Position numbers and translations under genes: made by a program
Notes under the pieces: model-generated
What the model was told of the DNA's origin: nothing
The model's input: only the letters and a program-made list of their open reading frames with translations
Database searches by the model: none
Source: Flavobacteriaceae bacterium
GTDB lineage: Bacteria; Bacteroidota; Bacteroidia; Flavobacteriales; Flavobacteriaceae
NCBI GenBank assembly: GCA_018669795.1
Contig: JABHSQ010000020.1
Coordinates: 62,001-126,000 of the forward strand
DNA: 64,000 nucleotides
Direction: 5' to 3'
Shown here: piece by piece, positions 13,873 through 29,078 of the stretch
How the letters are laid out: each line of letters opens with the position of its first letter
Numbering within the stretch: the first letter of the stretch is position 1

Positions 13873-14059
13873 ACAAAATTAGACTTGTAAAGCTAACGTA
13901 CCTTTACGTTAATTCATATATATTCTTCATTAATTTTTTAATTGCAGTTTAATAGTTGGTTTGTAGAAATATTCTAAGTTCTACTTAGTTATTTAAATTC
14001 AAGGTATTTTTTTATTTTCAACTCGTTTTTAAATACTTAAAAAAATTAATTTATTAGGG

Positions 14060-14090
14060 TTGTTTTTACATAAATTTATTTCTACATTTG
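14060..14090 (+). promoter_or_regulatory. Predicted sigma-ABfr-type promoter of the str operon
   Basis: TTG (14060-14062), 20-nt spacer, TACATTTG (14083-14090) matching TAnnTTTG. Confidence 0.65.
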
Positions 14091-14132
14091 CAAACCCTTA
14101 AAAAAGGGTATTTTATTATATAAAAAGTTTAT

Positions 14133-17155: not shown

Positions 17156-17461
17156 ATGAGTCAAAAAATTAGAATAAAGCTAAAATCTTACGATCACAAC
17201 TTAGTGGATAAATCTGCTGAAAAAATCGTTAAGACTGTAAAAAGTACAGGAGCAGTTGTAACGGGGCCAATCCCTTTACCAACTCATAAAAAAATATTTA
17301 CTGTATTGCGTTCACCGCACGTAAATAAAAAGAGTAGAGAACAATTTCAATTAAGTTCTTATAAAAGGCTTTTAGATATTTATAGTTCTTCATCAAAAAC
17401 AATCGATGCTTTAATGAAGTTAGAATTGCCAAGTGGTGTAGAAGTAGAGATTAAAGTTTAA
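17156..17461 (+). CDS. rpsJ: 30S ribosomal protein S10
   Basis: [21 protein letters not shown]. Confidence 0.99.
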
Positions 17462-17571
17462 GTTTATGAAGTGAGTATTCATAACTATAAAATGAATCTT
17501 ACAAAATAAATAATTGCTTAAAACATGTCTGGAGCTTGAACGCAAAGGAAAAACGGAAACAGAATAATATT

Positions 17572-17604
17572 CAGGATTGAATTTATTTTCATCCTGTTTT
17601 TTTT
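17572..17604 (+). terminator. Intrinsic terminator-like hairpin inside the ribosomal cluster (rpsJ-rplC junction)
   Basis: CAGGAT/ATCCTG stem with inner GAA/TTC pairs followed by eight T's. Confidence 0.65.
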
Positions 17605-17650
17605 AATTAATGTTTCAGGATAAATAATTAATAATTAATAAATAATAAAT

Positions 17651-18262
17651 ATGTCTGGGTTAATTGGAAGAAAGATAGGTATGACTAGCATCTTTGACGC
17701 AAACGGCAAGAATATGCCGTGTACCGTTATTGAAGCAGGTCCCTGTGTTGTCACCCAAGTCAGAACTAAAGAAGCTGACGGGTACGAAGCTCTTCAACTT
17801 GGTTTCGATGACAAAAAGACTGCTACAAAAGCTGCTCAAGGGCATGCTAAAAAAGCAGGAAGCGCTGTAAAGCGTAAAGTTGTTGAATTCCAAAGATTTG
17901 AAGAAGATTATAAATTAGGCGACACCATAACAGTGGAGCATTTTAAAGAAGGGGAGTTTGTGGATGTTTCAGGAACTTCAAAAGGAAAAGGATTTCAAGG
18001 TGTTGTAAAACGTCATGGTTTTGCCGGTGTAGGTCAAGCGACTCACGGTCAGCATAACCGATTAAGAGCTCCTGGATCTATTGGTGCAGCTTCATATCCT
18101 GCAAGAGTATTTAAGGGTATGCGTATGGCTGGACAAATGGGTAATGAAAAAGTAAAAGTACAAAACCTAAGAGTGTTGAAAGTAGTTGCTGAAAAGAACT
18201 TACTTGTTGTTAAAGGATGTATTCCTGGAGCTAAAAATGCTTATGTAACTATTCAGAAATAA
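17651..18262 (+). CDS. rplC: 50S ribosomal protein L3
   Basis: L3 sequence [14 protein letters not shown]. Confidence 0.99.
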
Positions 18263-18891
18263 TGAAGGTAGCAGTATTAGATAAAAACGGAAAAGACACA
18301 GGTAGAAAGGTAGATCTTTCTAAAGATGTGTTTGGAATTGAGCCTAATAATCACGCGCTTTATCTTGATGTAAAGCAATACCTTGCAAATCAAAGGCAAG
18401 GTACGCATAAGTCAAAAGAGCGTGCAGAGATTACTGGTAGTACCAGAAAAATAAAGAAACAAAAAGGAACTGGTACAGCCCGTGCGGGTAGTATTAAGTC
18501 TGGTGTTTTTAGAGGTGGTGGAAGAATGTTTGGTCCAAGACCAAGAAATTATTCTTTTAAATTAAATAAGAATTTAAAAAGATTAGCGCGTCGTTCTGCA
18601 TTGAGTATCAAGGCAAATGAAAAAGCAATAGTTGTAATTGAAGATCTTAATTTTGATACTCCAAAAACTAAAGAATTCACATCAGTATTAAAGTCTTTAG
18701 GCTTAGATGCTAAAAAATCTTTATTTGTGTTGGGAGAGTCAAATAATAATCTATATTTGTCGTCTCGTAATTTGAAAAGCACTGAAGTGGTAACTAACTC
18801 TCACTTAAGTACTTATAAAATTATGAATGCAAACAGCTTAGTGTTGTTTGAAGGTTCATTGGAAGGAATTGAGTCAAACTTAAGTAATTAG
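18262..18891 (+). CDS. rplD: 50S ribosomal protein L4
   Basis: L4 sequence, overlaps rplC stop (TAATG). Confidence 0.98.
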   Translation: MKVAVLDKNGKDTGRKVDLSKDVFGIEPNNHALYLDVKQYLANQRQGTHKSKERAEITGSTRKIKKQKGTGTARAGSIKSGVFRGGGRMFGPRPRNYSFKLNKNLKRLARRSALSIKANEKAIVVIEDLNFDTPKTKEFTSVLKSLGLDAKKSLFVLGESNNNLYLSSRNLKSTEVVTNSHLSTYKIMNANSLVLFEGSLEGIESNLSN

Positions 18892-28958: not shown

Positions 28959-29078
28959 TTCTGAAAATATTCAGAAACTTTTATATAAATTAATTAATAA
29001 GTATAAACTGAAGGATTAAGATATTCAAAGGATAAGTATAAGACCTTAATTTGAGAATCCCTTCAAAAAAAATTAGAA

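Follow-up and report, generated by a model that had tools for sequence, protein, structure and literature searches.

What does the DNA between rpsJ and rplC encode in this Flavobacteriaceae ribosomal-protein cluster? Within the window (the whole 64,000-nucleotide stretch of DNA that was analysed), the open reading frame list leaves 189 nucleotides between the two genes (17462-17650), in agreement with the length of about 190 nucleotides given in an initial annotation of the sequence, and the other junctions of the cluster are mostly 0-30 nucleotides long. Further long junctions separate rpsK from rpsD (ca. 120 nucleotides), infA from rpsM (126 nucleotides, probably accommodating rpmJ), rpsN from rpsH (69 nucleotides) and rpoA from rplQ (60 nucleotides). 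The annotation read the rpsJ-rplC gap as an rplC leader carrying a terminator/antiterminator switch, and this general idea is upheld by the analysis described here, but the competing arm that it proposed is not.

To our knowledge, little is known about how ribosomal protein synthesis is balanced in the Bacteroidota, in which translation initiation differs from that of E. coli. A switch that occurs once per genome in ca. 80% of the Flavobacteriaceae genera sampled, and that precedes a very large cluster of ribosomal genes, is a concrete candidate for such control. We are highly confident that the gap contains a family-wide leader RNA with a terminator/antiterminator pair, which is real and, as far as checked, undescribed.

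Architecture and conservation of the leader element

The covariance model of the element matches the window at 17523-17603 (G000:C3:79523-79603) with an E-value of 4.4e-13, and the genome contains this single copy (Table 1). At the 5' end, a small hairpin is set between near-invariant flanks (ACAUGUCC ... GGAAAAACGG). In the relatives, the element runs from ACAUGUCCnnAGC through a loop to GCRARGGAAAAACGG, an A-rich linker, a hairpin (e.g., CAGGGUUGAA...UUUUGACCCUG) and a T-run, the T-tracts of some members being weak, as exemplified by GAATTTTATATA in Winogradskyella. Two pairs of the P1 stem, U6-A29 and C7-G28 (columns of alignment A2), are invariant, and the remaining pairs show compensatory changes. 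This 5' domain is probably the ligand-binding site, and it corresponds to the less AT-rich upstream segment for which a sensory role had already been suggested.

Table 1. Coordinates of the leader element, its substructures and the adjoining genes in the window.
Feature	Position	Strand	Evidence
rpsJ (uS10), gene 5' of element	17156-17461	+	ORF; homology across loci
Entire conserved leader element: 5' domain, linker, terminator, U-tract	17523-17604	+	Covariance model; T-run to 17604
5' domain (P1), ACAUGUCU-hairpin-GGAAAAACGG; probable sensor	17523-17556	+	Alignments A1/A2
P1 stem: 17528-17530/17547-17549 and 17534-17535/17542-17543	17528-17549	+	Pair counts
AAAAACGG, 5' strand of proposed helix C; partner 17593-17601 (CCTGTTTTT)	17549-17556	+	MFE, state energies, core-variant control
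Antiterminator hairpin A: 17561-17567/17583-17589 and 17569-17573/17578-17582	17561-17589	+	Fold; linker swap tests
Terminator hairpin B: CAGGAT/ATCCTG (17572-17577/17591-17596) plus GAA/TTC	17572-17596	+	Fold; covariation
Intrinsic terminator U-tract, eight T	17597-17604	+	Sequence
Second CAGGAT, arm proposed in the initial annotation; outside conserved element	17616-17621	+	Absent in L163, L001
rplC (uL3), nearest gene 3' of element	17651-18262	+	ORF; homology
rplD (uL4), second gene 3' of element; candidate ligand	18262-18891	+	ORF; uL4 compared across lineages with and without element

The motifs on which the annotation was built, two copies of CAGGAT, one ATCCTG and a run of eight T residues, are all found in the sequence where it had placed them. 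The terminator hairpin has a predicted folding energy of -9.1 kcal/mol (z -3.7) and is more stable than all of 200 shuffled sequences. A simple terminator scan does not list the site, but its assignment as an intrinsic terminator is supported by the folding and comparative evidence. In an alignment of 97 elements that was fitted to the structure under test, 13 of the 18 pairs in the 5' hairpin and the terminator are changed on both sides, 92.4% of the paired cells contain a pair (versus 85.2% for shuffled sequences and at most 58% for slid partners) and the covariation score is 0.323 (versus 0.179 and at most 0.080, respectively). A sequence-only MAFFT alignment agrees, with 91.1% of cells paired and 11 pairs with changes on both sides. 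These comparisons argue for a leader of a ribosomal protein gene with a conserved, covarying RNA structure.

Distribution and genomic context

Among the rpsJ-rplC gaps extracted from the rplC-relative loci that were collected, 48 of 76 contain the element, including that of the window. On a wider scale, the covariance model (R1) detects it in 244 of 301 Flavobacteriaceae genomes, covering 192 of 237 genera, normally as one confident match per genome, and every confident match that was checked for context lies between rpsJ (uS10) and rplC (uL3). In searches of 395 genomes from across the class and 248 from across the order, conducted with strict filters that could miss divergent relatives, confident matches were restricted to the Flavobacteriaceae. 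Second copies in some genomes, and hits from families of the class other than the Flavobacteriaceae, were rejected, the 5' motif and the ribosomal protein neighbours being absent in all of the fetched loci (a set that left out the weakest few hits). What the model matches weakly at other places is AT-rich hairpins. Within the family, one large genus (g129) has no match among the genomes listed; as all named Flavobacterium loci are without the element, this genus is probably Flavobacterium.

The distance from rpsJ to the element ranges from 9 to 474 nucleotides across loci, and that from the element to the rplC start codon from 27 to 104 nucleotides. At ca. 10 loci, TAnnTTTG, the Bacteroidetes-type promoter pattern, is found a few tens of nucleotides 5' of the element, and some of these loci also have a terminator-like hairpin 3' of rpsJ. 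These are pattern matches only; a promoter-like sequence at this place is as would be expected for a true 5' leader. A pattern scan of the window found no TAnnTTTG 5' of the element, and here the element would thus act inside the operon.

Competing structures of the leader

The A-rich linker is complementary to the loop and the inner 3' arm of the terminator, with a UUCA/UGAA pairing inside, and so gives rise to hairpin A, which is mutually exclusive with hairpin B. In a linker swap test, the complementarity is -4.81 kcal/mol for native combinations versus -2.92 kcal/mol for permuted ones (z -12.6), and the effect is retained both in 25 sequences of less than 80% identity (z -7.7) and when the most frequent linker type is left out (z -8.6). 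With the 3' arms reversed as a control, z is -4.4, so that part of the linker signal reflects composition and most of it does not. The linker/loop pair types include AAUAC/GUAUU, AACAC/GUGUU, AACAAA/UUUGUU and AAGAAA/UUUCUU, and by this comparison of sequences the linker is shown to coevolve with the loop and the inner 3' arm of the terminator. An H-type pseudoknot containing A and B together was also considered and is ruled out, since there are no nucleotides between the 3' arm of A and that of B.

In the minimum free energy fold of the window element, AAAAACGG pairs with CCUGUUUUU (17593-17601), that is, with the terminator 3' arm (CCTG) and the U-tract, and the resulting helix C encloses hairpin A. 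The predicted energy of this read-through fold (A with helix C) is -14.7, compared with -12.3 for the terminator fold. Over 95 sequences, the mean state energies are -22.0 for the terminator, -18.2 for read-through and -14.0 for read-through without helix C, and the read-through energy is at or below that of the terminator in 26 of them. The gain from helix C, which is -4.2 with the native core, is mostly smaller with scrambled cores (-0.6 to -2.7), although the pairing is better with one of these, AAAAGGC (-5.3). Helix C shows no covariation because AAAAACGG is nearly invariant; on the basis of these energies, helix C may explain that invariance, for which a protein site would be just as good an explanation. 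Taken together, the comparative and energetic evidence points to alternative folds of the leader, one of which contains an intrinsic terminator.

A model for control of the S10 operon

In the reading that we prefer, a conserved transcription attenuator that acts in cis is encoded between rpsJ and rplC. Through pairing with the CC of the terminator 3' arm and the U-tract, AAAAACGG would close the antiterminator, and the predicted read-through fold would then be competitive with the terminator. When present in excess, a ribosomal protein from the downstream genes (by our ranking, uL4 most likely and uL3 next) would bind the 5' domain, including AAAAACGG, and block closure of the antiterminator, allowing the terminator to form and transcription to stop before rplC. 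Expression of the ribosomal genes from rplC onward would be lowered, if they are co-transcribed, with rpsL-rpsG-fusA-rpsJ unaffected; if the switch acts in this way, ribosomal protein output is probably adjusted by it. Feedback by a ribosomal protein is likely by analogy, and the entire chain, with an operon-encoded ribosomal protein as the ligand and termination on excess, is slightly favoured. In most species the terminator has the advantage in folding energy, by several kcal/mol, and read-through would therefore depend on kinetic trapping or on a factor that stabilises it; the regulation could also have the opposite sign. Only tentatively do we put forward the most specific form of the model, in which a new family of ribosomal protein leaders uses an invariant A-rich motif both as the protein site and as the antiterminator strand that sequesters the U-tract, inside a fused str-S10 operon, so that uL4 or uL3 would control the large-subunit part on its own.

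By analogy with known leaders, a protein from the operon itself would be expected as the ligand. In E. coli, the S10 operon is attenuated by uL4 (review PMC10931766), a parallel that the initial annotation had drawn with reason, and we place the probability that uL4 is the ligand here at a little under one half. Positions that are invariant in lineages with the element and altered in those without it amount to 8 of 97 in uL4, 2 of 113 in uL3, 3 of 162 in uL2, 2 of 89 in uS10 and 3 of 37 in uL23, with uL4 having the highest number and uL23 matching it as a fraction. Residues I57, I78, S80, R88, L114 and K135 of uL4 (window numbering) are kept in 47 of 47 carriers, apart from one change of L114, and several of the six change in lineages without the element. 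Most of this pattern comes from the Flavobacterium clade together with one group of uncultured genomes; given this confounding by phylogeny, it is only a hint. The R88T and K135N/S changes are found mostly in Flavobacterium, and S80N also occurs in the group of uncultured genomes.

The 5' domain has no sequence resemblance to 23S or 16S rRNA, and a split profile scan performed no better than with shuffled rRNA; since the MAG contains no assembled 23S rRNA of its own, Galbibacter and E. coli were used instead. A candidate likeness of GCGAGGGAAAAACGG to domain I of 23S rRNA (around E. coli nucleotide 463; 13 of 18 matches) was discarded, being no better than several other places. Among published leaders, visible rRNA mimicry is often absent (PMC7247131, PMC2864571).

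Alternative explanations

The same switch might respond, through its 5' domain, to a signal from outside the S10 operon, such as a small molecule, an ion or a general transcription factor. A small aptamer could likewise have near-invariant unpaired flanks (ACAUG and AAAAACGG) on either side of a variable hairpin, and the negative result for rRNA mimicry is compatible with one. The element occurs, however, as a single copy and only before a ribosomal protein operon, which suits an autoregulatory protein more than it does a metabolite that acts on many targets, and we consider a signal of this kind unlikely.

A degree less probable again is a partial terminator that acts without any ligand and holds the ratio of the str genes and rpsJ to the S10 operon constant, the 5' domain serving in processing or stability. 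Such a device would accord with the favoured terminator state in most species and with the variable length of the upstream gap; however, the coevolution of an antiterminator arm and the near-invariance of the 5' domain would both be superfluous to it, and some copies have their own promoter-like sequence immediately in front of them.

The switch originally proposed, in which ATCCTG alternates between the upstream CAGGAT and the one downstream at 17616, is very improbable. The complementarity is present in this genome, but the downstream arm is missing from locus L163, which is from the same genus, and from L001, the closest relative, the uL3 of which is 99% identical, and the hairpin between ATCCTG and the downstream CAGGAT is unremarkable (-5.6 kcal/mol, with z from -1.3 to -2.0 against shuffled sequences). 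The three CAGGAT/ATCCTG arms are thus not conserved as a set in relatives, in which the conserved competitor is instead found upstream (the linker at 17561-17567 and AAAAACGG). A chance hairpin in an AT-rich gap, with no regulation at all, would resemble the AT-rich hairpins matched weakly elsewhere, but conservation, covariation and a fixed position across 192 genera leave it a negligible probability.

Relation to known leaders

As far as checked, the element represents a new family within a known type of RNA, the ribosomal protein leader attenuators. With the E. coli S10 leader (PMC10931766) it shares control of the S10 operon, putative here, a terminal intrinsic terminator and uL4, encoded in the operon and here a candidate, as the effector. 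The E. coli leader lies 5' of rpsJ, whereas the Flavobacteriaceae element is located 3' of rpsJ and 5' of rplC, and in E. coli uL4 and NusA hold a paused polymerase at the terminator (PMC10931766), while here there is a coevolving antiterminator hairpin. The logic of the model proposed here is that of the rplJL leader of B. subtilis, which responds to L10(L12)4 through a terminator, an antiterminator and an anti-antiterminator, such that protein on an upstream domain prevents the antiterminator and permits the terminator (PMC10931766). That leader differs in its genes and sequence, and its control by protein is demonstrated, whereas protein control, like any kink-turn, is putative here.

Lineage-restricted leaders of ribosomal protein genes have likewise been obtained by comparative genomics (Eckert and Weinberg, 2020; PMC7247131), among them the S4, S15 and S16 leaders of Flavobacteria and the L4 leader of Archaeoglobi. 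None of the 20 motifs in that set is a Flavobacteria leader before rplC, and the sole rplC/rplD motif is archaeal. The name of the GUCCY-hairpin (Weinberg, 2010; PMC2864571) suggests a conserved GUCCY hairpin of Bacteroidetes, and P1 of the element begins with GUCC. By its description, the GUCCY-hairpin, with which the element might be identical, is reported from Bacteroidetes and Proteobacteria and is rated uncertain, in contrast to the element, which was found in one Bacteroidota family only; in the 2010 table it carries no Rfam number. The initial annotation had allowed for an already known leader at this site, and a search of Rfam, including the S10 and L4 leaders, returns no family there at E<=5, while the same library does detect the S4-Flavobacteria leader elsewhere in the cluster. 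No Flavobacteriaceae rplC leader was found in the open-access literature. The covariance model would enable the element to be recognised by annotation pipelines.

Other leader-like sequences

The model of the S4-Flavobacteria leader (RF03141) has its match in the rpsK-rpsD gap (29020-29059; 32.2 bits, slightly below the gathering score) and not at the element; judged from this weak match, it is a known ribosomal protein leader in the same cluster as the element. The Rfam scan also covered a gap of ca. 260 nucleotides 5' of rpsL, at the start of the cluster (13873-14132).

In Tenacibaculum/Polaribacter gaps (L040, L050 and L070), a strong hairpin with a T-run (CTTTCGG...CCGAAAG) follows rpsJ and overlaps promoter-like sequence; the element comes next, and between it and rplC is a conserved stretch that contains GACGCGCTGGATA. 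The genus Flavobacterium, being without the element, provides a natural comparison, and several of its species have a promoter-like sequence before rplC: in such gaps (L045, L053, L054, L055; L052, L056, L058, L060, L063), TANNTTTGCA takes the place of the element, and on its 3' side are two further leaders that look conserved and have no evident terminator.
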